Below are positions 4,593-31,211 of a stretch of DNA of 32,854 bases, piece by piece. The notes beneath the pieces were generated by a model. That model was not told the origin of the DNA. It made no database searches and saw nothing but the letters and a program-made list of their open reading frames with translations. The position numbers and the translations under genes were made by a program. The first letter of the stretch is position 1. Every line of letters starts with the position of its first letter. The stretch lies in IMG/VR virus record IMGVR_UViG_3300013233_000439, positions 1-32,854 of that record, one strand, 5' to 3'. This stretch comes from a virus.

Positions 4593-4663
4593 GGCTCTTT
4601 GGGGTATTGGTTGCCCATAGAATTCTAAATTTTATTAGGCCGGTTCAATTCCGGCAGGAGCCA
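4593..4663 (+). tRNA. tRNA with CUA anticodon (amber suppressor)
   Basis: A full cloverleaf: acceptor GGCTCTT/AGGAGCC (7 pairs, one G-U); T8; D-stem GGG/CCC with GG in the loop; anticodon stem TAGAA/TTTTA around loop TTCTAAA, so U33 and anticodon CUA; 4-base variable region; T-arm GCCGG/CCGGC with loop TTCAATT; discriminator A4663. CCA is not encoded (CTA follows). CUA pairs with UAG, so the product would insert an amino acid at amber codons. It starts five bases after bS21. Several genes here still end in TAG (8049, 9247, 21034, 22235), so suppression must be partial, timed, or useful only for genes elsewhere. The charged amino acid cannot be told from sequence alone. Confidence 0.88.
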
Positions 4664-4819
4664 CTAAATTTTTCCATCAATCACGATCAATGGTCTATAT
4701 TCATTAGTCTTATATGCATTAAATTTATCTTTTATATTTTCATATTCTTTATTATAACCATATGAAGACTTAATTTCAAAAAGGTGTTGACAAATTGAAA
4801 TATTTGTGTATAATACCAA
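4664..4819 (-). pseudogene. C-terminal remnant of a PD-(D/E)XK-type endonuclease
   Basis: Read on the - strand, a short open frame of about 50 codons between a TGA (4820-4822) and a TAG (4664-4666) encodes QHLFEIKSSYGY followed by NKEYENIKDKFNAYKT and RPLIVIDGKI. FEIKS has the E-x-K of PD-(D/E)XK nucleases, and the following helix and strand resemble the ends of phage homing endonucleases. It has no start codon of its own or upstream domain, and a + strand promoter runs through it, so it looks like a leftover. It ends flush with the CUA tRNA. Confidence 0.45.
4787..4814 (+). promoter_or_regulatory. sigma70-type promoter
   Basis: TTGACA at 4787-4792 and TATAAT at 4809-4814 with a 16-base spacer, both perfect consensus hexamers. 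It is the first of two strong promoters about 100 bases apart ahead of the large structured RNA region. Confidence 0.7.
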
Positions 4820-4923: not shown

Positions 4924-5905
4924 ACAGAATTTGACATGTACCGAAATTTGTATCGGCACCGTTTGAACCTTTGGGAACGAACCAAGTAAAATAGGATTAG
5001 ATTCCTATCATGTTGATGGTTTTAAGCTCGAATTAATAATCCGTGGTGACACGGGAAGAGGCGGTGACCTAACTATACCCGTCTACCTACTTCGGTAGTG
5101 TAAAATTGAGCAAGCCTCACCATCCCCGCGAGGGTGGTTTCGTTGACAAAAGCGACGGAACTAATGGCGAAGTATTAGTAAGGTAAAGAACAATTGCTTA
5201 TGTGCCAGCTTGTCTGGGCAACACATGTGATTGAAGAACGGTTGGTACCCGTCACCAGACACACCAATAATACGAACCACTAATGGTAAAAGGTAGAAAT
5301 AAAAGTCCAAATCAGCAAGTAAGGGCATTATTTCAGTTCAAAAGGTCTTTGGAATAGTCACCGCCCGCAAGGGCTTAATTAAGATGTCGTTCCAGAAGTC
5401 TTGAAGAACAGTCATTTCTCCGGCAGGAGATGACATTTGATGTGTAGCATTTTGTAATCCGAAAGGACTATGAACCTACTGGACGCACACGTCATCGTTA
5501 GTAAAAGTATAGCCAAGTTGAGAAGGCATCTGCCTTAAAAGCAGAAGATCGATGGTTCAAATCCGTCTATTTTTAAATAAAAATGCAAAGTTGCGTTCAG
5601 TGTAAAACGAAAATGACTTAATGCTACACACTTCGGTGAATGTACGCGCCCAGAAAGCTCGCAAGGCGATTTGGTTTTGAAACAAAGTCGCACGTTGGGG
5701 TCGAACCCTTCACAGTCCGATAGGATTGACGGTAGACAAAATTTCGAGTAGTTTTACAGTATAGTGTGCACGCAGGCACTTTAAATCTTGCAGTCATGTT
5801 TGACAACGCGATTAGATTGCGTGGAAAAGACTAGAACTTTAGCTGTCGCAGGCGATGAGATAATGAGTCGAAAGGTTAAAACGTCCCGTGTGTATTCTCA
5901 GCACG
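4924..5905 (+). ncRNA. large ornate structured RNA, ~1 kb (GOLLD/ROOL-like?)
   Basis: Almost 1 kb without a credible gene but dense with hairpins, many capped by stable tetraloops in + orientation: CTAC-TTCG-GTAG (5087-5098), a GCGA loop (5119-5138), GCCC-GCAA-GGGC (5363-5374), GTCA..TCTCC-GGCA-GGAGA-TGAC (5411-5434), a GAAA loop (5455-5470), a TTCG loop (5625-5644), CAGTCC-GATA-GGATTG (5713-5728). Other stems: 4991-5008, 5138-5160 (8 pairs), 5200-5226, 5482-5493, 5666-5691 and 5806-5822 (7 pairs). A tRNA-like fold lies inside (5503-5575). A perfect-consensus promoter precedes it. Large ornate RNAs such as GOLLD and ROOL occur in phages beside tRNAs and have this size; membership is inference. 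The 3' end is uncertain; a - strand gene ends at 5911. Confidence 0.7.
5503..5575 (+). tRNA. tRNA-Leu(UAA)-like, atypical
   Basis: Cloverleaf inside the large RNA region: acceptor AAAAGTA/TATTTTT (seven pairs, only A-U and G-U), T8-A9, D-stem GCC/GGC, anticodon stem TCTGC/GCAGA around CTTAAAA (U33, anticodon UAA, codon UUA), five-base variable region, T-arm GATGG/CCGTC with loop TTCAAAT, discriminator A. No CCA is encoded. Two features are odd: bacterial tRNA-Leu has a long variable arm, absent here, and the acceptor stem has no G-C pair. The D-loop also lacks the usual GG. It may be a diverged tRNA, or a tRNA-like domain of the surrounding RNA. Confidence 0.65.
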
Positions 5906-10142: not shown

Positions 10143-12107
10143 ATGAGTATTTTCCAAAAGTATCAAGAACGATACGAAGACAAGCAAGCAGAAGAGATGT
10201 CCTTAGTAGAATATCTTGAACTTTGCAAAGAGGACAACGGCGGATACGCATCCGCAGCCGAAAGACTGTTAATGGCAATCGGCGAACCAACCGTAATAGA
10301 CACAAGAAACGATGAACGCCTAAGTAGAATCTTTTCTAATCGAAAAATAAAAACATACAAAGCATTCGAAGACTTTTATGGCATGGAAACTGCTATTCAG
10401 CAAATCGTTTCATTTTTGAAACATGCAGCACAAGGTCTTGAAGAAGAAAATCAAATCTTATACTTACTCGGTCCAGTTGGTGGTGGTAAGTCATCTTTAG
10501 CAGAACGCCTTAAAGAATTAATGCAGAATATTCCAATTTATGCACTTAAGGCATTCAATCCAAATGCAAAAGATGGACAGGGTCAATGGGAAATTTCACC
10601 ATTATATGAATCGCCACTTGGTTTGTTTGATATAGCAAAAGACAGTCAAGAACTGGCAGAAACCTATGGGGTTCCAAAACGTTACTTGAAATATATTCCT
10701 TCCCCGTGGGCAGTAAAACGTCTTCAGGAAATGGAAGGTGATATAACAAAATTTAAGGTCGTTAAGATTTGGCCAGACATTTTACAACAAGTTGGTATTA
10801 CTAAGGTAGAACCTGGCGATGAGAATAATCAAGACATTTCATCTTTGGTTGGTAAAGTAAATATCAGTCTACTTGATGAATTCGACCAGAACGATCCAGA
10901 TGCATATAAATTTGTTGGTGGCTTAAACGTTGCTTCACAAGGTATGATGGAATTTGTGGAAATGTTTAAAGCGCCATTGAAAATGTTGCACCCACTGTTG
11001 ACTGCTACACAAGAAGGTCACTACAATGGTACTGAACAATTTGGTGCTATTCCCTTCGGCGGAATCATCCTTGCACATAGCAATGAATCCGAATGGACAA
11101 CATTCCGAAATAACAAAAACAATGAAGCGTTCTTAGACCGTGTTAATATTGTTAAGGTTCCGTATTGCTTACGTACGACGGAAGAAACGGAAATTTATAA
11201 TAAACTAATCACAAAATCCGAATTAGTAAAAGCGCCTTGTGCACCAGGCACAGTGGAAATGATGGCGCAGTATTCTGTTATGACGCGATTATTGAAACCA
11301 GAAAACAGTTCCACATTTTCCAAGATGGAAATTTATGATGGTAAAAACTTAAAAGACAAAGATCCACAAGCTAAGTCTATGGAAGAATACAAAGACATGG
11401 CTGGTGTAGCAGAGGGAATGTCTGGTTCATCTACACGTTTTGCTTTCAAGATTTTGTCAAAAGTGTATAACTATGATTCAGAAGAAATAGCCGCAGACCC
11501 TATACATTTAATGTATATTCTCGAACAGCAAATTCTTCAAGAACAAATGAGTCAAGAAGAAGAAGAACGTTGTATTTCATTCATTAAAGGTGAATTGCAA
11601 CCACGCTATGCAGAATTCTTAGAAGATGAATTGCAAAAGGCATACTTAGAATCCTACCACGACTTCGGTCAGAATTTATTTGAACGCTATATTCAATTAG
11701 CAGACTTCTGGATTCAGGATAAGGATTACCGTGACCCTGACACTGGTACAATGTTTAATCGTGATATTCTTAACGAAGAACTCGAGAAAATTGAAAAACC
11801 AGCTGGTATTGGCAATCCAAAAGATTTTAGAAATGAAGTGGTAAACTTTGTGTTGCGAGCAGTAGCTAACAATGGTGGCAAACAGCCAGATTGGACAAGC
11901 TATCAAAAACTTTGTGAAGTAATTCAGAAGAAAATGTTCGCCAATACCGAAGAACTGTTACCTGTAATTTCATTCAGTAAGAAAGCCTCTTCTAATGAAG
12001 AAGAAAAGCATGAAGATTTTGTTTCCCGTATGATGGATAAGGGTTATACTGAAAAACAAGTTCGACGTGTGGTTGAATGGTTCCTCCGCTTTTCTAAAAA
12101 CAATTAA
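10143..12107 (+). CDS. prkA: serine protein kinase PrkA (YeaG)
   Basis: A 654-aa protein of full PrkA length. The N-terminal AAA+ module carries Walker A GPVGGGKSS (residues 110-118) and typical PrkA stretches (SIFQKYQERYED; DRVNIVKVPYCLRTTEE; GSSTRFAFKILSKVYNY). The C-terminal part is the kinase-like region, ending VRRVVEWFLRFSKNN. In enterobacteria YeaG forms an operon with YeaH and is induced under nitrogen starvation and stationary phase; in Bacillus PrkA affects sporulation. Here it is first of a complete three-gene set with YeaH and SpoVR under one promoter. A strong GNRA hairpin covers the stop codon. Phage copies may adjust the starved-cell programme, which is inference. The family call is firm. 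Confidence 0.95.
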   Translation: MSIFQKYQERYEDKQAEEMSLVEYLELCKEDNGGYASAAERLLMAIGEPTVIDTRNDERLSRIFSNRKIKTYKAFEDFYGMETAIQQIVSFLKHAAQGLEEENQILYLLGPVGGGKSSLAERLKELMQNIPIYALKAFNPNAKDGQGQWEISPLYESPLGLFDIAKDSQELAETYGVPKRYLKYIPSPWAVKRLQEMEGDITKFKVVKIWPDILQQVGITKVEPGDENNQDISSLVGKVNISLLDEFDQNDPDAYKFVGGLNVASQGMMEFVEMFKAPLKMLHPLLTATQEGHYNGTEQFGAIPFGGIILAHSNESEWTTFRNNKNNEAFLDRVNIVKVPYCLRTTEETEIYNKLITKSELVKAPCAPGTVEMMAQYSVMTRLLKPENSSTFSKMEIYDGKNLKDKDPQAKSMEEYKDMAGVAEGMSGSSTRFAFKILSKVYNYDSEEIAADPIHLMYILEQQILQEQMSQEEEERCISFIKGELQPRYAEFLEDELQKAYLESYHDFGQNLFERYIQLADFWIQDKDYRDPDTGTMFNRDILNEELEKIEKPAGIGNPKDFRNEVVNFVLRAVANNGGKQPDWTSYQKLCEVIQKKMFANTEELLPVISFSKKASSNEEEKHEDFVSRMMDKGYTEKQVRRVVEWFLRFSKNN

Positions 12108-12137
12108 TCGGTAGGGGGCGAAAGCCCCACGATTAAT
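12103..12137 (+). other. intercistronic GNRA hairpin
   Basis: A long stem, ATTAATCG (12103-12110) with CGATTAAT (12130-12137), continues as GGGGC/GCCCC capped by a GAAA tetraloop; four unpaired bases (GTAG) sit opposite one A. It overlaps the prkA stop codon and lacks a U-tract, so mRNA stabilisation or differential expression within the operon is likelier than termination. Confidence 0.65.
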
Positions 12138-12151
12138 ATTAGGATTTAAAT

Positions 12152-13441
12152 ATGGCTCATATAATTATAGACCGTAGAAAGAATTCGAAGGGCAAGAGTA
12201 CCACTAATCGCCAACGATTCTTGAAGCGTGTTAAAAAACAAGTAAGTGAAGCAGTACGTGATACTATTCGTGATGGTAAAGTCGGCGACATAATCAATAG
12301 CAAGGATAAGAAGATAAAAATTCCAGGCAAAGGATTAAGTCAACCAACTTTCAACCACGATTCAAAAGGCGGTATTCGTGATTCTGTTCGCCCAGGTAAC
12401 AAAGAATTTAATCAAGGCGACAGGATAAAACGTCCACCTGAAGGTGGTGGGGGTGCTGGCACCGATGGTTCACCAGATGGCATTGGCGAAGATGATTTTT
12501 CATTCCATTTAACCAAAGAAGAATTCCTTGATTTATTTTTCCAAGATCTTGAATTGCCAGATATGGTTAAAAAGGATATTGCCAAGCTAGACGAATGGGC
12601 ATATCAACGTGCAGGATTTTCCGTAGACGGCAATCAAAGTCGCCTCAATATTTTACAATCAATGCGTCATGCTGTTGGTCGTAAAATTAGTCTACGTGCA
12701 CCCAAGACCAAAAAGTTAAAAAAATTACGAAGAGAATTGGCTTCGTTGGAAGAACAACAACCAAAAAACGAAGAAACAAAAACACGTATTTTGGCAATCA
12801 ATGAAGAAATTGAAATTTTGTTACGCAAAATAAAAGCTATACCATTCTTAGATGATATGGATTTACGCTATAATCGTTGGGAAAAAGTACCAGTACCAAC
12901 TACACAAGCAGTTATGTTTGGTATTATGGATGTATCTGCATCTATGGGTGAATGGGAAAAAGAAATGGCTAAACGTTTCTTCATGTTGATGCTTTTATTC
13001 CTACATTACAATTATGAACGCGTTGATATAGTTTGGATTCGTCATCACGTTCAAGCAAAAGAAGTTGATGAAGATGAATTCTTTCATTCACAAGAAACTG
13101 GTGGCACTATCGTATCCTCTGCATTAACAATGATGCATGAAATAATCAAAGATCGGTATCCTACTAATGCGTGGAATATTTTTGGATGTCAAATATCGGA
13201 TGGTGATAACTGGCGCGAAGATAATATTGAAGCTTGTGAAATATTAAAAAATAATATTTTACCACTAAGTCAATATTTTGCTTATGTTGAAGTTGATCGT
13301 CGTCGCACTGCTGGTCAAAGTGATTTGTGGCAACCATATGAAGGTATTAAAGATTCTACCAAAAATATGGAAATGGCAATGATCAATGATGTGACAGAAA
13401 TATATCCTGTGTTTAGAACCCTATTTGAAAAAAAGGAATGA
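12152..13441 (+). CDS. yeaH: YeaH/YhbH family protein (DUF444)
   Basis: A 429-aa protein, length typical of the family (about 420). It has the conserved start (IIIDRRKNSKGKSTTNRQRF), a Gly-rich linker near residue 98-105, the FHLTKEEFLDLFFQDLELP segment and a von Willebrand A-like domain with metal-site motif DVSAS (residues 260-264, DVSASMGEWEK). The end (IYPVFRTLFEKKE) is also typical. In cells it works with PrkA/YeaG and SpoVR/YcgB, though the biochemical role is unclear. The start has AGGA in ATTAGGATTTAAAT before ATG. It stops four bases before the SpoVR ATG, and the SpoVR Shine-Dalgarno sequence lies within its last codons. Confidence 0.93.
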   Translation: MAHIIIDRRKNSKGKSTTNRQRFLKRVKKQVSEAVRDTIRDGKVGDIINSKDKKIKIPGKGLSQPTFNHDSKGGIRDSVRPGNKEFNQGDRIKRPPEGGGGAGTDGSPDGIGEDDFSFHLTKEEFLDLFFQDLELPDMVKKDIAKLDEWAYQRAGFSVDGNQSRLNILQSMRHAVGRKISLRAPKTKKLKKLRRELASLEEQQPKNEETKTRILAINEEIEILLRKIKAIPFLDDMDLRYNRWEKVPVPTTQAVMFGIMDVSASMGEWEKEMAKRFFMLMLLFLHYNYERVDIVWIRHHVQAKEVDEDEFFHSQETGGTIVSSALTMMHEIIKDRYPTNAWNIFGCQISDGDNWREDNIEACEILKNNILPLSQYFAYVEVDRRRTAGQSDLWQPYEGIKDSTKNMEMAMINDVTEIYPVFRTLFEKKE

Positions 13442-13445
13442 TAAT

Positions 13446-16196
13446 ATGAAAGTAACATCATGTGAAGATTGGTCGTTTGATAAAATTGAAGACATCTACC
13501 TTGAAATACAAAAGGTTGCGGATGAATTTGGTATGAATTATTATCCAAATCAATTGGAAATTATTTCTTCTGAACAAATGTTGGATGCCTATTCGTCTGT
13601 GGGATTGCCCATATACTATCATCATTGGTCGTATGGTGAACGTTTCATAAAAGAACTTGAAGCTTACAAGCGCGGACGCATGGGATTGGCATATGAAATT
13701 GTCATAAACTCAAGTCCATGTATTGCATATTTAATGGAAGAAAATTCTATGCTTATGCAAACTTTAGTGATTGCACATGCTGCCTTCGGACACAACCATT
13801 TCTTTAAAAATAATTACCTATTTAAACAATGGACAGATGCTGAAGGTATTTTAGATTATCTTTCTTTTGCTAAAAAATATATTCGTAAATGTGAAGATAA
13901 GTATGGTGAAGCTGAAGTAGAAGCAATATTAGATGCCGCACATTCACTTAAACATTATGGTGTTGATAAATATAAACGACCACCAACAATATCCGCTGCC
14001 AAAGAAGAAGCACTTCGTAAAGAACGCGAAGCTTATAACCAATCACAGATAAATGTTATTTGGAGTACTATTCCTACTACCAAAAAGGAAAAAGAAGAAG
14101 CTGAAGAACATTTTCCGTCTGAACCACAAGAAAACATTTTGTATTTCATAGAAAAAAATGCACCAAATTTGGATGAATGGAAACGTGAAATAATTCGTAT
14201 TGTGCGTAAAATATCACAGTACTTTTATCCACAGAGGCAATCACAAGTTATGAACGAAGGCTGTTTAGTTGAAGGTAGTAAAATAACTACAGAACATGGC
14301 TTGATGGATATTAAAACATTAATAGAAATTAAATATTCTGGGAAAGTTTGGGATGGTGATAAATGGGAAACTGTGTATGATTGGTTCACACATGAAAACA
14401 AACCTCGGGTACGAATTGTTACGAACAAAGGCTATGAAATACATGGCGGAGCAGGTCATAGGATAAAGATTGATAATGTATGGAAATCTATATCGGACAT
14501 AGATGTTGGTGATGTAATTGATGTATCGCCATTATCTTCACATCAGTGGAATGTAGACGAACCAAAATTGGACTTCCCCAAAACCATTAAATATATTACA
14601 GAAGAAACAGCATGTAAAATGTTTAATGTTGGTGTTACCACATATTGGAGATTTTTAAGAGATCCAGCATACGCGGATATTATGGTTAATGATAATGCAG
14701 AAAAATGTCGAGCAGTACAAGAATTGTTAGATAGTAATGGTGATCGCTCTAAAATGCAATCAAAGCGCGTAATACCATTATTCCCATCTAAAATGACCCC
14801 AAACCTAGCAAAATGGTTGGGGTATTTAATTGGCGATGGAAATGTATCAGCAGCAAATAGGGTAATATGTCTTACATCTGGTGATTATAGTATGGTAACC
14901 GACTTTGAGATGCTAACCCATTCTATTTTTGGTGAACACATAAATGTTGCCATTAATAAAGACGATAATAGATATAGGGCTACCATAAGCAATCAAGAAA
15001 TTTTATCGTTTATTGCAACTGAATTGAACATCAAAATAGGTAAGTCGTCTAGTGTTAAAGAAATCCCAGAACAGATATTTCATGCCACAAAAGAATCAGT
15101 GGTGAATTTTTTGCAAGGTTATTTTGATGCTGATGGTTGTGCTACGAAGGATGGAAAAGTAATCCTCGTATCTAACTCCAAAAAGTTAGTATCTGGAGTA
15201 CAAGATTTGTTACTACATTTTAATATTTTTTGTTCATATAGATTGCAAAAAGACAACACTTACCATCTAGTTGTTGATGGTATAAACGCATTATATTATA
15301 GGGAAACTATAGGTTTTGGATTAGAACGCAAACAATCAAGACTATCCATACTGAACGATATGAAGTTTTTACAAAGAAAAACAAAATGTGTTGTTGAACG
15401 AATAGAAATAGATAATGGAACAACATATGACTTTTCTGTTGAAAATTCACATCAATATTATCACAAAGGGATAGTTAACCATAACTGTGCAACGTTTTTC
15501 CATCATAAAATTATGCACAAATTACATGATAAAGGAATAATATCTGATGGTGCAATGTTAGAGTTTTATACTTCTCACACCAACGTTGTGTATCAACCAG
15601 ACTTTGATAGCAAACGCTTTAGCGGAATCAATCCATATGCTTTGGGTTTTGCTATGTATCAAGATATTGAACGCATATCAATGGAACCTACTGATGAAGA
15701 TCGTGAATGGTTTAAAAACCAAGAATGGGTTGGTAATGGAGATTGGCACAAGAACATAAAATGGGCTATAGAAAACTTTAAAGATGAAAGTTTTATTAAA
15801 CAATTTTTATCACCAAAATTGATGCGAGACTTTAGAATGTTTGCCATTCACGACGACGAGGAAGATCCTAAGTTAGAAATTTCTGGCATACATAATTCAC
15901 AAGGTTATGTTGAGGTTCGAGATGCACTTTCCAAACAATACAATATTGGATATAAGATACCAGACATCCAAGTATATAATGTTGATCGTTGGGGTGACCG
16001 TTCTATGCAATTGCGACATTATATGGTGAATAATGTTCCACTCGACAGGGAATCAACTATAGATACTTTGCGGTTCGTATCTTATATATGGGGGTATGAT
16101 GTTAAATTGGAATCTGTAGATATTGATAATAATGCAAGATCTTCATATCAAAATATTGATTCTGAAATGGCATTGGATATATTTTTAGAAGATTGA
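13446..16196 (+). CDS. spoVR: SpoVR/YcgB family protein with intein
   Basis: 916 aa in total: SpoVR N-terminal part (residues 1-272), intein (273-680) and C-terminal part (681-916), giving a 508-aa spliced protein, the normal SpoVR size. N-extein landmarks: FGMNYYPNQLEIISSEQM and HHWSYGERFIKE, AHAAFGHNHFFKNN. C-extein: ATFFHHKIMHKLHDKG and INPYALGFAMYQDIER. The intein splits the conserved NEG-CATF motif, so unspliced protein should be inactive. SpoVR is required for spore cortex formation in Bacillus and occurs with PrkA and YeaH in non-sporulating bacteria. The start at 13446 is chosen because AAGGA lies eight bases upstream; the frame is open back to 13425 inside yeaH. Confidence 0.93.
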   Translation: MKVTSCEDWSFDKIEDIYLEIQKVADEFGMNYYPNQLEIISSEQMLDAYSSVGLPIYYHHWSYGERFIKELEAYKRGRMGLAYEIVINSSPCIAYLMEENSMLMQTLVIAHAAFGHNHFFKNNYLFKQWTDAEGILDYLSFAKKYIRKCEDKYGEAEVEAILDAAHSLKHYGVDKYKRPPTISAAKEEALRKEREAYNQSQINVIWSTIPTTKKEKEEAEEHFPSEPQENILYFIEKNAPNLDEWKREIIRIVRKISQYFYPQRQSQVMNEGCLVEGSKITTEHGLMDIKTLIEIKYSGKVWDGDKWETVYDWFTHENKPRVRIVTNKGYEIHGGAGHRIKIDNVWKSISDIDVGDVIDVSPLSSHQWNVDEPKLDFPKTIKYITEETACKMFNVGVTTYWRFLRDPAYADIMVNDNAEKCRAVQELLDSNGDRSKMQSKRVIPLFPSKMTPNLAKWLGYLIGDGNVSAANRVICLTSGDYSMVTDFEMLTHSIFGEHINVAINKDDNRYRATISNQEILSFIATELNIKIGKSSSVKEIPEQIFHATKESVVNFLQGYFDADGCATKDGKVILVSNSKKLVSGVQDLLLHFNIFCSYRLQKDNTYHLVVDGINALYYRETIGFGLERKQSRLSILNDMKFLQRKTKCVVERIEIDNGTTYDFSVENSHQYYHKGIVNHNCATFFHHKIMHKLHDKGIISDGAMLEFYTSHTNVVYQPDFDSKRFSGINPYALGFAMYQDIERISMEPTDEDREWFKNQEWVGNGDWHKNIKWAIENFKDESFIKQFLSPKLMRDFRMFAIHDDEEDPKLEISGIHNSQGYVEVRDALSKQYNIGYKIPDIQVYNVDRWGDRSMQLRHYMVNNVPLDRESTIDTLRFVSYIWGYDVKLESVDIDNNARSSYQNIDSEMALDIFLED
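14262..15485 (+). other. class 1 intein with LAGLIDADG endonuclease (in SpoVR)
   Basis: A 408-residue intein. It begins with Cys1 (CLVEGSKITTEHGLMDI, block A), has a block-B-like GYEIHGGAGHRIKI, two LAGLIDADG motifs, LGYLIGDGN and LQGYFDADG, then block F (TYDFSVENSHQYYHKG) and ends VNHN followed by Cys+1. Cys1, penultimate His, terminal Asn and Cys+1 all present, so class 1 splicing should work. Both endonuclease Asp residues are kept, so it may still be mobile. Confidence 0.92.
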
Positions 16197-23543: not shown

Positions 23544-23749
23544 TGAGTACAGTCTGTTTTTGTGGATCAAGTGAACATATATATTATAGCATTATAGAAT
23601 CCGAAGATGGATATGAAGCAGAAGTAGACGACAGAACAAATAAGATACAGCACGAAGAATTTTCCAACTTTTTGAGCGCAAAATGTTGGATAATCAGAAT
23701 CATAAATGAGCACAAAAAGGAATCAAATGAAATTGATAGATATAACTGA
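23543..23749 (+). CDS. small hypothetical protein, 68 aa
   Basis: A 68-aa acidic protein starting MSTVCFCGSSEHIYY, with Cys-x-Cys near the start; the rest is helical (EEFSNFLSAKCWIIRIINEHKK). No family recognised. It overlaps the DHFR stop (TGATG), and the Acb1-like gene begins inside its last codons. Its tight coupling on both sides supports it being a real gene. Confidence 0.6.
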   Translation: MSTVCFCGSSEHIYYSIIESEDGYEAEVDDRTNKIQHEEFSNFLSAKCWIIRIINEHKKESNEIDRYN

Positions 23750-24236
23750 GAAAAAAGAAACCAAAGGCACCTATGCTGGTGTACGATTTAGCGATAAAAC
23801 CAAAGATGCTGTAAAGAAGTATATGAAGGATAACAAAATCCCAAATCCACTTCGTACGGAAAAGATGCACAGTACCTTGTTATACAGTAGGAAATATTGT
23901 CCAGACTACGAACCAGCAGGTGAAATGGAAGAAACCCTTATTGGGAAATCCGATTCATTTGAAAGTTGGGAATCGCAACCAGATGATGATGGCAATACAA
24001 GCAATTGTTTGGTATTGAAATACACCTGCGACGGTTTAAAAGACCGACACGAATCTTTAATGAAAGAACATGGTGCCACATTCGACTTTGATGATTACAC
24101 ACCCCACATAACATTTTCCTATGATGTAGGCGATTTAGATCCTAAGAAACTTCCCAAGTTTGAAGAGGATATAGAAATAGTCGAAGAATACGGGGAAGAC
24201 CTTGATTTGGATTGGGCAAATAAAAAGGACGCATAA
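23727..24236 (+). CDS. acb1: 2H phosphoesterase, Acb1-like anti-CBASS protein
   Basis: A 169-aa protein with the two H-x-T motifs of 2H phosphoesterases: KMHSTLLYSRKYCP (His48, Thr50) and YTPHITFSYDVGDL (His127, Thr129), with a start MKLIDITEKK..KGTYAGV. The context of both motifs resembles T4 57B (Acb1), which cleaves the cyclic oligonucleotide signals of CBASS immunity and so protects the phage; T4 Acb1 is of similar length. Generic LigT-like RNA 2',3'-phosphodiesterase is the alternative. ATG 23727 is chosen because AAGGA lies five bases upstream; ATG 23706 would add seven residues. The stop codon forms the loop of the terminator. Confidence 0.8.
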   Translation: MKLIDITEKKETKGTYAGVRFSDKTKDAVKKYMKDNKIPNPLRTEKMHSTLLYSRKYCPDYEPAGEMEETLIGKSDSFESWESQPDDDGNTSNCLVLKYTCDGLKDRHESLMKEHGATFDFDDYTPHITFSYDVGDLDPKKLPKFEEDIEIVEEYGEDLDLDWANKKDA

Positions 24237-24883: not shown

Positions 24884-24912
24884 TTGACATTTATATGGTT
24901 ATCTGGTATAAA
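24884..24912 (+). promoter_or_regulatory. sigma70-type promoter of the tmRNA
   Basis: TTGACA (24884-24889), 17-base spacer, TATAAA (24907-24912). The predicted start near 24919 is three bases before the first paired base of the tmRNA acceptor piece (24922). Confidence 0.8.
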
Positions 24913-24918
24913 TATATG

Positions 24919-25192
24919 TATCACTGTTTATAAAGATTGAAAATAAGCATTTCGGACGCGGAGGCAGTATCCGCCATCTCCACTAATTAGGTTATAAATT
25001 TGGGGATGACATAGTTTCGACGGGGTGTAGAAGATAAATCCACAGTGCGGTTAAGCAATCATCCGTAATTGAAAGAAACTTAAAGTAAACGCAAATGACG
25101 ATTACTATATGGATACTTACGCTTTAGCAGCGTAACCCATCGGGGGTAACGCCTTGTAACCCAATAGTAGGGACACTTCGGTGTCCCTTTTT
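24919..25192 (+). ncRNA. ssrA: circularly permuted (two-piece) tmRNA
   Basis: The tRNA-like 3' part comes first: P2 strand CACTGTTTAT (24922-24931), ATTTCGGAC, T-arm GCGGA/TCCGC (24958-24974), acceptor strand CATCTCC (24975-24981), discriminator A. After a ~20-base spacer comes the 5' part: GGGGATG (25002-25008) pairs all seven bases with CATCTCC (one G-U); TTTCGACGGG matches the tmRNA D-region; ATAAA..CAGTG (25034-25047) pairs the P2 strand with a four-base bulge. The resume codon GCA at 25091 opens the tag ANDDYYMDTYALAA, stop TAA 25133-25135. Processing would yield an acceptor piece and a coding piece that rescue stalled ribosomes and tag the peptide. The T-loop GGCAGTA is unusual (normally TTC-type), and CCA is not encoded. 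Confidence 0.95.
25169..25192 (+). terminator. rho-independent terminator of the tmRNA
   Basis: GGGACAC (25170-25176), TTCG loop, GTGTCCC (25181-25187), then five T. It ends the tmRNA transcript about 35 bases after the tag stop codon. Confidence 0.92.
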
Positions 25193-25255: not shown

Positions 25256-25879
25256 TTGTTAATGCTGCATTGCAGAGAAAAAACTATCACAGAAATGTAC
25301 ACAGAAAAACATCACATAACACCTAAATCTATGGGTGGTGACAATTTTTCACAAAACATAGTAATTTTAACTGCGCGTGAACATTTCCTATGTCATTGGT
25401 TATTAACGAAAATGTGTATGGATAAATCACATACAAATAAAATGATTTATGCGTTTCATTCCATGGGGATGAAAAATGGATTCACCACAAAACGACACAT
25501 AAATTCACGAGCTTATCAACACAACAAAGTAAAACTTAGTAAATTGATGAGTGACCGTATGAAAGAAAATAATCCAATGTCTGATTTAAAAGTAAAGAAA
25601 AAACACTTAAAAAACACAAAGTTGCGCGGGAAAACAAGAGGAACTACAGGATTGCAACACACATTAGAAACAAAACAAAAAATGAGTGAATCCGCCAAAG
25701 GAAGAAAGGCATCTAAAGCCACAAAAGAAAAACTAAGTAAAATAGTATCTTCTTATTGGGAAGAACAGCGAAAAAATGGCACAAATAAAAGACAGGCATG
25801 TAGTGAAGAAAAGAAAAGAAAAATAAGTGAAACTTTAAAAAGAACGTACGCCAAAAACAAGGAGAAGAAAAATGATTGA
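25256..25879 (+). CDS. HNH homing endonuclease with NUMOD3, frameshifted N-terminus
   Basis: The main frame gives YTEKHHITPKSMGGDNFSQN (HNH core with HH and Asn), LTAREHFLCHWLLTKM, GRKASKATKEKLSKI and other NUMOD3-like basic helices (NNPMSDLKVKKKHLKN; HTLETKQKMSESAKG). The family start, MFIDNKYTKQYYLIVNAAL, is found from ATG 25216 but in another frame; the switch lies between about 25275 and 25295, near a six-A run. As written, translation would begin at TTG 25256 or ATG 25295, giving a nuclease with a shortened N-terminus. It sits just after the tmRNA terminator. Its stop overlaps the next small gene. Decay, or a sequence error. Confidence 0.75.
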   Translation: MLMLHCREKTITEMYTEKHHITPKSMGGDNFSQNIVILTAREHFLCHWLLTKMCMDKSHTNKMIYAFHSMGMKNGFTTKRHINSRAYQHNKVKLSKLMSDRMKENNPMSDLKVKKKHLKNTKLRGKTRGTTGLQHTLETKQKMSESAKGRKASKATKEKLSKIVSSYWEEQRKNGTNKRQACSEEKKRKISETLKRTYAKNKEKKND

Positions 25880-25994: not shown

Positions 25995-26600
25995 ATGATC
26001 AATAAAAAACCAATTGCGGGCACTATCCTCATAGAGGAAGAAGATACGCAGACCCCCAAACCATACGAATACTTTGTCCAAACCCAATCGGCAAAAATTC
26101 ACCACTATTATCTGAGTGGGTACATAAGTGAACCCACAGATTATGTGAAAATGGTGCACGAAATACAAACCGCACCCGCCGAAGACACCATACACATACA
26201 CCTAAATACCCCAGGCGGCGACCTATCTACAGGCGTGCAGATAATAAATGCCATGAAATATACTGCCGCGTTGGTAATATGTAGTCTGGAAGGCGAAGCC
26301 CATTCTTTGGGTTCGTTGATATTCTTGGCAGCTGATCAGTTCGTAGTCCATGACAATGCCTTTATGTTAATACACAACTATACTGGTGGTGTATTCGGCA
26401 AAGCAAAAGAGCAAGAAATGGAAATGGAAGCAACCATTAAATGGTTCGCAGAAATAGCAAAAAAATATTATACCCCATTCTTAACTGATAAGGAATTGAA
26501 AGAAATCTTTGACGACAAAGATAAATGGTTACATTCCGAAGAAATCAGAAAACGACTTACCAAAATGGTCAGACTAAAAAAGAAAGAACTAAACGCTTGA
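25995..26600 (+). CDS. ClpP-like serine protease (S14 family)
   Basis: A 201-aa ClpP-fold protein: strand IHIHLNTPGGDLSTGVQIINAM with the oxyanion-loop TPGGD, catalytic Ser104 in EAHSLGSLIFLAAD and His127 in FMLIHNYTGG, with normal spacing. The usual acidic third residue would be in the DKELKEIFDDKDKW region. The family hydrolyses unfolded peptides with an AAA+ unfoldase; phage members also serve as prohead-type proteases, but no scaffold or capsid gene is adjacent. Here it sits between a small membrane gene and primase, an early replication setting, so proteolysis of host or regulatory proteins is more plausible. That assignment is inference. Confidence 0.88.
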   Translation: MINKKPIAGTILIEEEDTQTPKPYEYFVQTQSAKIHHYYLSGYISEPTDYVKMVHEIQTAPAEDTIHIHLNTPGGDLSTGVQIINAMKYTAALVICSLEGEAHSLGSLIFLAADQFVVHDNAFMLIHNYTGGVFGKAKEQEMEMEATIKWFAEIAKKYYTPFLTDKELKEIFDDKDKWLHSEEIRKRLTKMVRLKKKELNA

Positions 26601-26631
26601 TATTCTCACCATCATATGATATTATTCTTTG

Positions 26632-27639
26632 ATGGATTTAGAAGAACTAATAAAAAGACATGTCCATCTTCAACCACCCAGTAGAAAAGGTTGGCAATCA
26701 GTAAGATGTCACGTATGCAACGACCATACCAAAAAAGGTCTAAGGGGTGCATTCAAATTTGAAAATGGTGACATAGATTATAAGTGTTGGAATTGTGGAC
26801 ACAAATCCAGATACAATCCCGAAGTCAATGAATACTATTCTAAAAATATGTTAACAACATTGGATGCTTTTGGTATTCCAGCCGACGATTACAAAGCACT
26901 AATATTGGATAGTCCCGCGTGGAAGAATGGTTCCAAAGAAAAATCAGAAGATAATAAAAGGGTTATAAAAATAGAACCCAAAGTTTTGCAGATGCCAGAA
27001 CATTTCTATTATCTTAAAGATGCCATGGACGAAGACTTTGTTGCCACCGCCGCGAGAGAATATTTGGAATCGCGTGGCGTAGACCCAACATCATATCCAT
27101 TTATGTTATCACATAAAGCCGAAAATGAAAGGTTGCACAAATGGTTGGGTCGTGTTATAATGCCAATATATAAAAATAATGAATTGGTATACTACATCGG
27201 TAGGGCGTTATATGACGCCGTTAAAAAATATGAAACACCAGCAGTAACAAAAGACAATATAATCTATGGTTTTGACAAACTATTTGATTATGACGATAAA
27301 TCCCCCTTGTTGATAGTTGAAGGGTGGTTTGATGCCGAAGCTATTGATGGTATAGCATTATTGGGAAATATAATAACAGAACCGCAAGCTATATGGTTGG
27401 GTAAAAGTTCGCGAAAAAAAGTTTACATACCAGATAAGTTTGGTGATGGTAAACATGCGGCTCAACAAGCTTTAGAATTGGGTTGGAGTATATCGTTACC
27501 TGACGTTGGTAGTGATGGAAAAGATATGTCCGATGCAGTGTTAAAATATGGTAAAATGTATATATTAAAAACCATACACGATAATACGATAGATGACCCA
27601 GAGATAGCAGAAACATTATTAAACGATTACTGCGATTAA
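26632..27639 (+). CDS. DNA primase (T4 gp61/DnaG type)
   Basis: A 335-aa primase. The N-terminal zinc finger has Cys26 and Cys29 (RCHVCNDH) and Cys52 and Cys55 (YKCWNCGHKS). The middle resembles the RNA-polymerase domain of DnaG (WLGRVIMPIYKNNELVYYIGRAL). The TOPRIM domain has LLIVEGWFDAEAID with the catalytic Glu, followed by VYIPDKFGDGKHAA, which has one Asp-x-Phe rather than the usual DxD. It makes RNA primers for lagging strands, normally with a gp41-type helicase that is outside this window. The ATG at 26632 is used; a TTG directly before it adds one residue. No clear Shine-Dalgarno. Confidence 0.9.
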   Translation: MDLEELIKRHVHLQPPSRKGWQSVRCHVCNDHTKKGLRGAFKFENGDIDYKCWNCGHKSRYNPEVNEYYSKNMLTTLDAFGIPADDYKALILDSPAWKNGSKEKSEDNKRVIKIEPKVLQMPEHFYYLKDAMDEDFVATAAREYLESRGVDPTSYPFMLSHKAENERLHKWLGRVIMPIYKNNELVYYIGRALYDAVKKYETPAVTKDNIIYGFDKLFDYDDKSPLLIVEGWFDAEAIDGIALLGNIITEPQAIWLGKSSRKKVYIPDKFGDGKHAAQQALELGWSISLPDVGSDGKDMSDAVLKYGKMYILKTIHDNTIDDPEIAETLLNDYCD

Positions 27640-28176: not shown

Positions 28177-28635
28177 ATGAGTATGATTCGCAGTTTGGGA
28201 AAAGGGTACATCAATCTCCCCGACATATTAACACAATTTGAGAATGAATTGAAGGAAGCAGACACTCGCCTTGATAATAAAGGTAAGATGTTAGAAACTT
28301 GCTTAAGTGAAAATTCTGCGTTTATGCATTATTACGACCAAAGAAAGAACATGCTTCATACGTTAGTTAAATATTTTGAGATGGAAATTGATCGCATACG
28401 AAGTGAATTGTATGTGTCATACACAGAAAATTACAGCAAGTCATTGTCACATCAACAAGTCATGAAATATATTGACCATGAGCCAGCATACTTGACCGTT
28501 AAAGAAATATCACTTGAAGTAGAAGAAATATATGAGCAATATGTTAGTGCAGTAGACAACTTTAAAACGCGTGGCTTTGCATTGCAACATATAACTAAAT
28601 TGCGTGTAGCACAATTGGAGTTTACTGAAATATAA
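28177..28635 (+). CDS. uvsY: UvsY-like recombination mediator
   Basis: A 152-aa helical protein, close to T4 UvsY (137 aa). The C-terminal VDNFKTRGFALQHITKLR corresponds to the conserved UvsY end (AIKSRGFAIKHIQDMR), and the central region has the same helix-rich, charged character. UvsY loads the recombinase UvsX onto gp32-covered single-stranded DNA. Its stop overlaps the UvsW ATG (TAATG), the same uvsY-uvsW neighbourhood as in T4 although here the two are translationally coupled. Assignment rests on the C-terminal motif and gene order. Confidence 0.85.
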   Translation: MSMIRSLGKGYINLPDILTQFENELKEADTRLDNKGKMLETCLSENSAFMHYYDQRKNMLHTLVKYFEMEIDRIRSELYVSYTENYSKSLSHQQVMKYIDHEPAYLTVKEISLEVEEIYEQYVSAVDNFKTRGFALQHITKLRVAQLEFTEI

Positions 28636-31211
28636 TGAAAGAATGTAAAATAATATTGATAGATGAAGTAAATTGCGCATGTCTTGGATTGTCCCGCGAC
28701 CATGCTGCATATTTTTACGAAAAGTACGGCATCCATACAGAAAACTATTTTTTCAATCCTAAGTTTCAATTGGGATCATGGGATGGTAAGATTCGTTACT
28801 TTCATAAGACTGGAAAAACATTTATAACCGTATTGGATGAGATAGTACCAAGTATTATTGGATTGGGTTATGATATATCCGTGGAAGATAAGCGCGTGGC
28901 ACTTTCCATAGCACCACCACCAATTGATAAAGATTTCTTCAGTAATATTATTGGTAAGGATGGCGAACCATGGGAAGTACGTGACTACCAAGTAGAATTA
29001 GTTAATTCTTTATTGGTATCTGGAAATGGTATTGGTATTGCGGGTACTGGGGCGGGTAAAGCTCAACCACTCAATTCAAATATACTAACCCCAATGGGTT
29101 GGAAAAAAATGGGCGATATTGATATTGGGGGTATAGTTACTACGCCCAACAATAAAACCAGTACTGTTATAGGTGTTTTTCCTCAAGGACAAAAAGAAAT
29201 TTATGAAATAACTTTCCACGATGGAACCACTACAAGGTGTTGTAAAGAGCATTTATGGAAAGTAAACCACCCCGTTACTACATATAGAAACAATACAGAG
29301 ACGAGATTAGTAACTACTGGTGATATAATAGATTTTTTGGATAAGAAGTCCAAAGATAAAAAAATTCATAACAATATTTCTATCCCGTTGTGTGATCCTA
29401 TTGAGTTTTCATCTAATGAAGAATTAACCATAGAACCATATTTATTGGGTTTGTTACTTGGTGATGGTATGATTAGTTCTGGTAGTATAATAATTTCGTC
29501 CGCCGACGAAGAAATACTCGAAAGTGTAAAATCACTAGTACTATCTAATGACCTCCATCTAATTCAACACAACGAATATGATTATTCAATAGTGAAGCGG
29601 CAAAAACAAAATACTTGTCCTCCTTCAAAAAACATATTAATAGAACGTTTAAAAGAAATGGGGTTATATGGGAAGCATTCCTATGATAAATTTATTCCCA
29701 ATAATTATAAAAATGCATCTATTGATGATCGGTTCAATTTAATTCAGGGTTTGATGGATACGGATGGTACAGTATCTAAAGATATGGGGAGACCCTCATA
29801 TTCTACAACAAGCAAAAGATTGGCAGAGGGGGTGTGTGAAATTATCCAATCACTTGGGGGGATATGCACAATAACGTCCAGGATTCCATCATATACATAC
29901 AGGGGTGTAAAGAAACAAGGAAGATTGGCATATACTTGTCACATAGCACACCCCACCCCCAAAAAATTGTTCAGGTTGGAACGAAAACGCAAAAAAATGT
30001 ACGATAAGCACGCAGATGGACGTACAGAATTATCGCGCAGAATTAAAAGTATAGATGTTGTATCATCAGAAAATGCACAGTGTATATTATTAGATTCAAA
30101 AGATCATTTGTATATAACAGATAACTTTATTGTTACACACAACACTTCTATGTGTGCAGCATTAGCACTATCGTATGAACGTACTGGCGCACTACGGTCT
30201 TTAATTATTGTCCCAGATACTACCCTTACAGATCAGACAAAAGATGCTTACGCGTACTTTGGATTAGATGTGGGGGAATTTAGTGGTGAATTAAAAGACC
30301 TTGATCATCAGCATGTCGTTTCAACGTGGCAGACGTTGAAGAATGACCCTACGGTCATAACCCAATTCAAAATGGTTATCGTCGATGAAGCACAAGGATT
30401 GCGTGGTCCTGTCTTAAGTAAGCTAATGAATGAATATGGTAAACATATATCTTATCGGTTTGGTGTCACAGGAACATTGCCAGAAGGTGAATCTGATGCG
30501 ACGGCAGTCCGCGTAGCAGTAGGTTCTGTGCAATATGAAATACCTGCACACGTTCTTATAGAACAAGGTCATTTATCTACACTTAACATTGATATAATAC
30601 AATTAACCGTAAATTTAAAAAAAGAATATGAAAATTTCAAAGAAGAAGTAAAGGGAGATTCAGAATTATCTAAGATTACCTATGGTAAATTTAAAGATTC
30701 GTATTTTCCAGACTTCACCGCAGAAAAATCCTTTTTACATTCACAAGAGTCGCGACAAAAATGGATAGCACAAGATCTAATAAACAAAAGCACATTAAGT
30801 AAAGGTAATGTATTGTGTTTGGTTAATGGTGTGGCATTTGGTAAAAAATTGGCAGAAATGATCCCCGATGCTGTTTTTTTGCACGGTAAAGACAAGAAGG
30901 CTGTTAGAAAGGAGATATATAAAAGTTTCGCTGATAACGATAACCTAATTGTTATAGCAACAGTACATATCGCGGGTACTGGGCTGGATATTGAAAGGAT
31001 ATTTAATTTGGTATTTGTAGATATAGGAAAATCTTTTATTCGTGTAATACAAGCAATTGGGCGTGGGTTAAGAAAAGCGCACGATAAAGATCACGTAGAC
31101 GTTACCGACATATGCTCAGATTTGAAATATAGTAAACGACATGTAGCAAGAAGAATCAAACATTATAAGGATGCAAAATACCCATACAATAAAAGAAAGG
31201 TTGATTATTGA
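28635..31211 (+). CDS. uvsW: UvsW-like helicase with intein
   Basis: 858 aa in total, 497 aa after removal of the 361-aa intein, matching T4 UvsW (about 500). N-terminal substrate-binding part: YFFNPKFQLGSWDGKIRYF; Walker A GTGAGK-TS is split by the intein after Lys142; motif II VIVDEAQGLRG; motif III FGVTGTLPEG; motif VI QAIGRGLRKA. UvsW is an SF2 helicase/translocase that unwinds branched DNA and R-loops and drives the switch from origin to recombination-dependent replication in T4. An unspliced product cannot bind ATP, so splicing controls activity. It overlaps uvsY (TAATG), and a homing endonuclease follows directly. Confidence 0.95.
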   Translation: MKECKIILIDEVNCACLGLSRDHAAYFYEKYGIHTENYFFNPKFQLGSWDGKIRYFHKTGKTFITVLDEIVPSIIGLGYDISVEDKRVALSIAPPPIDKDFFSNIIGKDGEPWEVRDYQVELVNSLLVSGNGIGIAGTGAGKAQPLNSNILTPMGWKKMGDIDIGGIVTTPNNKTSTVIGVFPQGQKEIYEITFHDGTTTRCCKEHLWKVNHPVTTYRNNTETRLVTTGDIIDFLDKKSKDKKIHNNISIPLCDPIEFSSNEELTIEPYLLGLLLGDGMISSGSIIISSADEEILESVKSLVLSNDLHLIQHNEYDYSIVKRQKQNTCPPSKNILIERLKEMGLYGKHSYDKFIPNNYKNASIDDRFNLIQGLMDTDGTVSKDMGRPSYSTTSKRLAEGVCEIIQSLGGICTITSRIPSYTYRGVKKQGRLAYTCHIAHPTPKKLFRLERKRKKMYDKHADGRTELSRRIKSIDVVSSENAQCILLDSKDHLYITDNFIVTHNTSMCAALALSYERTGALRSLIIVPDTTLTDQTKDAYAYFGLDVGEFSGELKDLDHQHVVSTWQTLKNDPTVITQFKMVIVDEAQGLRGPVLSKLMNEYGKHISYRFGVTGTLPEGESDATAVRVAVGSVQYEIPAHVLIEQGHLSTLNIDIIQLTVNLKKEYENFKEEVKGDSELSKITYGKFKDSYFPDFTAEKSFLHSQESRQKWIAQDLINKSTLSKGNVLCLVNGVAFGKKLAEMIPDAVFLHGKDKKAVRKEIYKSFADNDNLIVIATVHIAGTGLDIERIFNLVFVDIGKSFIRVIQAIGRGLRKAHDKDHVDVTDICSDLKYSKRHVARRIKHYKDAKYPYNKRKVDY
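29061..30143 (+). other. class 3-like intein with LAGLIDADG endonuclease (in UvsW)
   Basis: A 361-residue intein in the Walker A motif (GAGK before, TS after). Residue 1 is Ala (AQPLNSNILTPMGWKKMGDI), not Cys/Ser. The Trp-Cys-Thr triad of class 3 inteins is present: Trp in EHLWKV (block B), Cys in AQCILLD (block F), Thr in VTHN (block G); +1 is Thr. LAGLIDADG motifs LGLLLGDGM and IQGLMDTDG are intact. In class 3 the block F Cys starts splicing. Confidence 0.88.

Follow-up and report, generated by a model that had tools for sequence, protein, structure and literature searches.

Surveys of phage genomes have catalogued tmRNA genes in some number. One survey from 2022 found them in 402 of 18,146 phage genomes, with two-piece forms accounting for 53 of 133 unique phage tmRNAs and 50 of these 53 coming from marine or aquatic phages (PMC9004378), while a second study lists 79 phage tmRNAs along with 11,946 permuted sequences overall (PMC11915505). 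The tmRNAs of mycobacteriophages and of phage G are also products of phage genes, although they are not described as permuted, and mycobacteriophage DS6A carries a tRNA-like domain only (PMC4131195). Despite this cataloguing, no purpose of phage tmRNAs has been demonstrated in the literature that we searched.

Here we analyse a tmRNA gene in a viral record fragment of 32.9 kb (32,854 nt, the whole of which we call the window). As in the Methylophilales phage Melnitz and other aquatic phages (PMC9004378), the RNA is permuted, belongs to the alphaproteobacterial type and follows an early-type promoter. The surroundings differ, as the Melnitz ssrA gene adjoins a transcription coactivator gene with a glutamine riboswitch, whereas the window tmRNA lies between the genes for Acb1 and ClpP; no riboswitch was found in the window by Rfam search. 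A permuted phage tmRNA is not new as a kind, being already known in aquatic phages. The original prediction had called it unusual in a phage, which is an overstatement given the 53 published two-piece forms and the 116 viral contigs, some perhaps prophage or host flanks, that we found to match a single strict T-arm/acceptor pattern (with GGCNGTA).

Architecture of the permuted tmRNA

When the whole of Rfam was searched, positions 24922-25135 matched RF04321 (tmRNA_permuted) with 121.2 bits against a cut-off of 47 (E 2e-23), and RF01849 (alpha_tmRNA) was matched with 84.1 bits against a cut-off of 50 (E 1.4e-21), scores that rule out a chance resemblance. The covariance model for the beta type (RF01850, beta_tmRNA) remained below its cut-off (66.4 bits versus 84), and ARAGORN does not detect the gene. 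Assignment to the alpha class is based on the score above cut-off together with a T-loop of the alpha type, GGCRGTA (here GGCAGTA). These results bear out the proposal of a circularly permuted tmRNA that is carried by a phage and has a promoter and a terminator of its own, every named element of which was located in the sequence.

The acceptor half lies 5' of the coding half, and a seven-pair acceptor stem joins them. The acceptor (3') piece (24922..24985, + strand), delimited by the RF04321 and RF01849 alignments and by covariation, contains the 3' strand of P2, CACTGTTTAT (24922-24931), the T-arm GCGGA-GGCAGTA-TCCGC (24958-24974), the acceptor 3' strand CATCTCC (24975-24981) and A73 at 24982, which is followed by CTA in place of CCA. 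The gene itself thus supplies no CCA end (A-CTA), and CCA would need to be added after 3' trimming. Between the halves lies an intervening segment of 16 nt (24986..25001, + strand), which is predicted, by analogy with bacterial two-piece tmRNA, to be cut out when the RNA matures into its two pieces. The coding (5') piece (25002..25168, + strand), defined from the bases and the Rfam alignments, begins with the acceptor 5' strand GGGGATG (25002-25008) and includes TTTCGACGGG (25015-25024), the 5' strand of P2 (ATAAA at 25034-25038 and CAGTG at 25043-25047) and a conserved 3' element, GGGGGTAACGCCTTGTAACCCAATAGT, that recurs in two related viral records (G001 and G004 among our handles). Its open tag frame, ANDDYYMDTYALAA plus TAA (25091..25135, + strand; stop at 25133-25135), ends in the proteolysis signal ALAA immediately before the stop, and open tags are found in related phages as well.

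The order of the halves, the GGCAGTA loop of the T-arm, the acceptor stem with the alanine identity pair G3-U70, the UCGAC motif and the tag ending in ALAA are all shared with the systems described by RF04321 and RF01849, from which the window tmRNA differs in being phage-encoded and in lacking an encoded CCA. Its T-loop had been singled out as non-canonical. This is correct in comparison with tRNAs but not with alpha-type tmRNAs, for which the Rfam consensus reads GGCgGUA and the pattern shared by the 116 viral contigs GGCNGTA, and we reject an anomalous T-loop because GGCAGTA is the loop of the alpha class.

A sigma-70 type promoter, TTGACA-17-TATAAA, lies at 24884..24912 (+ strand) and agrees with 11 of 12 consensus positions, its -35 box TTGACA (24884-24889) and -10 box TATAAA (24907-24912) being 17 nt apart; the -10 region may also be read as TATAAATA, resembling a T4 late promoter. 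The motif TTGACA-N16-18-TATAA occurs four times in the window, compared with 0.19 expected from shuffles, and sites agreeing at 10 or more of 12 positions are found just 5' of the tmRNA in five other records (G001, G006, G019, G025 and G037). A stricter built-in promoter scanner leaves the site at 24884-24912 unlisted because position 6 of its -10 box is A. The intrinsic terminator AGGGACAC-TTCG-GTGTCCCT (25169..25192, + strand) consists of a hairpin at 25169-25188 followed by TTTT.

Conservation, origin and predicted role

Across ten related phage tmRNAs, 98.6% of acceptor-stem cells are paired, compared with 83.5% in shuffles, and four of the seven pairs show compensatory changes, a number reached in 0 of 500 shuffles; the stem of G006, misplaced by the automatic stem search, was read by hand for this purpose. 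The G3-U70 pair is unvarying in all ten and is present in each of the 92 parsable permuted tmRNAs from other viral loci. Minimum-energy folding of the tmRNA alone is not significant (z -0.5), as is usual for pseudoknotted RNAs; structural support is drawn from the covariance models and covariation rather than from folding energy. Among the sister tmRNAs, three (L175, L170 and L173, of G001, G003 and G019) have T-arms of 16 nt that can be read as 5-bp stems with loops of six bases (TTCGAA or TTCGAC), and loops of this size are unusual in this set.

The tags of sister phages span 10-18 aa and end mostly in LAA, IAA or LVA. An ALAA end is the usual Clp signal, and LAA is the ClpX signal. The suggestion that an insert in the window tag might alter the fate of tagged peptides is not upheld by this comparison, and a special insert was rejected on the strength of the variable sister lengths.

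Taken from the sequence, these features make it very probable that the locus encodes a functional two-piece tmRNA that rescues ribosomes with the help of host factors. A single precursor would start at about 24919 from the sigma-70 promoter and end at the UUCG terminator, host tRNA-processing enzymes would cut it into the acceptor and coding pieces, and the acceptor stem and P2 would hold the two together. After CCA addition, host AlaRS would charge the RNA through G3-U70 and, with host SmpB, the phage tmRNA would free ribosomes that had stalled on broken mRNA. The nascent chains would thereby gain the tag A-ANDDYYMDTYALAA, whose ALAA end would direct them to Clp proteolysis. We infer that the tmRNA is expressed, processed, charged and used in this way in infection. 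The likely benefit would be to recycle ribosomes that stall when the phage or host defence degrades the mRNA, and the neighbouring phage ClpP may serve the same tagging pathway.

No phage SmpB was found in 24 related records, some of them over 300 kb, so SmpB would have to come from the host. The suggested replacement of host trans-translation during infection would likewise depend on at least this host protein. Sharing of the host protein is also what would be expected if the RNA acted as a decoy that titrates SmpB or inhibits the host tmRNA instead of tagging, for which the DS6A RNA with its tRNA-like domain only offers a precedent (PMC4131195; PMC11915505). A decoy would have no need of tags, however, and the full coding half of the window RNA, together with the open tags of its relatives, which mostly end in LAA, makes this reading improbable.

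As to origin, the tmRNA had been proposed to be taken from the host. Its DNA has no similarity match among 50,697 phage records, and its coding-half motif and tag pattern are absent from 84,980 bacterial and archaeal genomes in two exact-pattern scans, which diverged relatives would escape. Recent capture is thus not supported, while an old acquisition is compatible with the scans, and a long residence of the tmRNA in phages would fit them. Permuted tmRNA was detected in 13 of 27 records searched, and the gene keeps its position in phages with ClpPs only 40-60% identical to that of the window. In some sister records the tmRNA is missing from the locus, which indicates that it is dispensable in the lineage: in G005 both Acb1 and tmRNA are absent and DHFR is followed directly by ClpP, and in L186/G029 the order DHFR-Acb1-ClpP-primase is kept without tmRNA. 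Such absences, and the unencoded CCA, are what might be seen if a host gene had been captured and were now decaying or passively carried. Yet compensatory changes in the acceptor stem, the invariant G3-U70, the conserved promoter and the retention of the locus across divergent phages argue against such a relic, which we consider highly improbable.

Linkage of the tmRNA gene to phage ClpP

Upstream of the tmRNA lies a gene for an Acb1-like anti-CBASS nuclease (23706..24236, + strand; Pfam Acb1 1e-38), which is syntenic in G001-G004, G006 and G019. Downstream, a ClpP protease (25995..26600, + strand), which the original prediction had passed over, is identified by Pfam CLP_protease (2e-15; 57.5 bits against a cut-off of 20.2), phrog_1827 (8e-55) and matches to ClpP structures in the PDB, and its triad Ser104, His127 and Asp176 is invariant in an alignment of nine phage ClpPs. 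Next comes a DNA primase (26629..27639, + strand; phrog_47 and synteny), whose position 3' of clpP is conserved in the lineage, where the gene order is thyA-DHFR-Acb1-tmRNA-ClpP-primase-UvsW. Closest to the window are G001 and G002, with 69% identity in the primase, followed by G003 (363 kb), G004, G006 and G019 (PrkA 69-76%). RAS14 and XacN1, two cultured jumbo phages, likewise have their ClpP and primase genes side by side.

What lies between tmRNA and ClpP varies, with homing endonucleases and a small open reading frame present in some records and missing from others. In the window, this gap holds an HNH/NUMOD3 homing endonuclease (25256..25879, + strand; Pfam HNH_5 and NUMOD3, phrog_655) that is missing from the gap in G001 and most relatives. 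In G004, G006 and G019 (L171, L172 and L173), the gap encodes a small protein, putatively located in the membrane, and the three copies have the motif GWN[FI]PQP in common.

Exact peptides of the window ClpP were found in no viral contigs, and the ClpP search was carried out by alignment after this. L120 (Atu_ph07), which does not align as ClpP, forms a row in alignment A1 and is omitted from A4; the cross-record search used A1 including L120, and its weak matches were not relied on. A linkage survey, begun once the pairing was apparent in the first lineage, added 80 ClpP loci by alignment, and 49 of the records were searched for permuted tmRNA. Twelve of the 49 exceeded the permuted-tmRNA cut-off, and a thirteenth has a tmRNA truncated at the end of its contig (55.6 bits). 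In ten of these 13, the truncated one included, the tmRNA lies directly 5' of ClpP on the same strand.

Four of the ten (G022-G025) share the first gene context, that of the lineage described above, although the ClpP of G025 groups with those of RAS14, XacN1 and L186. Five others (G041, G042, G043, G047 and G053) form a second context within a tRNA array that contains none of the genes of the first, and G037 has other neighbours again. Together with G000, G001, G002, G003, G004, G006 and G019, this gives 17 viral records, one with its tmRNA cut by a contig end, in which a tmRNA immediately precedes ClpP on the same strand; three gene contexts are represented. ClpP starts 76-310 nt beyond the modelled end of the tmRNA, except in two records where a homing endonuclease intervenes and the gap is about 0.9 kb. 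In G022, G025 and G037 (L178, L182 and L195), the ClpP-adjoining tmRNA exceeds the beta-type cut-off (108-117 bits), but in the window and G003 (L170) it exceeds that of the alpha type, as if RNA classes had been exchanged at one locus.

We tentatively suggest that tmRNA and phage ClpP form a linked tag-and-degrade cassette in several lineages of large phages, selected to stay together, in which the phage would supply both the tagging RNA and the proteolytic core, with the host providing SmpB, an unfoldase (ClpX or ClpA), RNA processing and charging. This idea, possible but the less probable outcome, extends the explanation by a functional tmRNA and does not exclude it. In its favour are the repeated placement of the tmRNA directly 5' of ClpP in three contexts, the invariant Ser-His-Asp triad and the persistence of the adjacency through homing-endonuclease insertions. 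On the ClpP tree, the adjacency requires five changes, of which supported branches force at least four. The second and third contexts are separated from the first by a branch with 100/100 support and a length of 0.97. By our own arithmetic, for one record per context (records within a context are not independent), the chance of a same-strand placement within 1 kb 5' of ClpP is about 0.0014 (363 kb), 0.005 (102 kb) and 0.011 (44 kb).

Against such linkage, most phage ClpPs have no tmRNA nearby. Permuted tmRNA was not found in 35 of the 49 ClpP records searched, many of which are fragments, and no annotated tmRNA adjoins ClpP in eight cultured-phage neighbourhoods (T5-like, V5-like, Alteromonas and Vibrio phages). 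Both genes are present but far apart in XacN1, G030, G057 and G059, while in G055 the tmRNA is of the one-piece form and lies about 3 kb from ClpP. Conversely, no ClpP was found in the available stretches of the 116 pattern-matched tmRNA contigs, nor any ClpX/ClpA-type domain (PF10431) in 16 records, and a terminator-like hairpin separates tmRNA and ClpP in the window, G001 and G004. If the cassette is real, it would keep ribosomes free and redirect proteolysis in infection. We found no published description of the pairing in the open-access literature, and its recurrence yields a testable idea, namely that stalled nascent chains may be tagged and degraded through a pathway of the phage's own.

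Xanthomonas phage XacN1 and other features of the window

XacN1, a cultured jumbo phage of Xanthomonas citri (AP018399.1), resembles the window in having a permuted tmRNA and related ClpP and primase genes. Its tmRNA is present at 37231-37530 and 356026-356325, one copy per terminal repeat, in an unannotated stretch of a tRNA cluster, and encodes the tag ANANTFDYALAA; the paper on XacN1 makes no mention of a tmRNA. With 123 bits for RF04321 and 107.8 bits for RF01850, the XacN1 RNA is of the beta type and lies about 50 kb from the XacN1 ClpP, whereas the window tmRNA is of the alpha type and lies upstream of ClpP. XacN1 offers a cultured isolate in which expression of a permuted phage tmRNA can be sought. 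Two annotated tRNA-Sup genes are located near its tmRNA, and a GOLLD RNA (227 bits) lies about 1 kb away.

A giant GOLLD RNA may also be present in the window at 5435-5904, where the score of 147.7 bits is just below the cut-off of 150 and a tRNA-Leu(TAA) lies inside. A tRNA with a CTA anticodon at 4593-4664, classed as Pyl by ARAGORN, is perhaps an amber suppressor. The region 10143-16196 contains host-like PrkA, YeaH and SpoVR genes, SpoVR being apparently interrupted by an intein; the PrkA shares 65% identity with YeaG of an Enterobacter phage record and 56-60% with sequences of uncultured phages of about 635-642 kb. At 28635-31211, a UvsW-like helicase is split by a LAGLIDADG intein, its 858 aa comparing with about 500 aa in G001, G003 and G004, as if these were intein-free.
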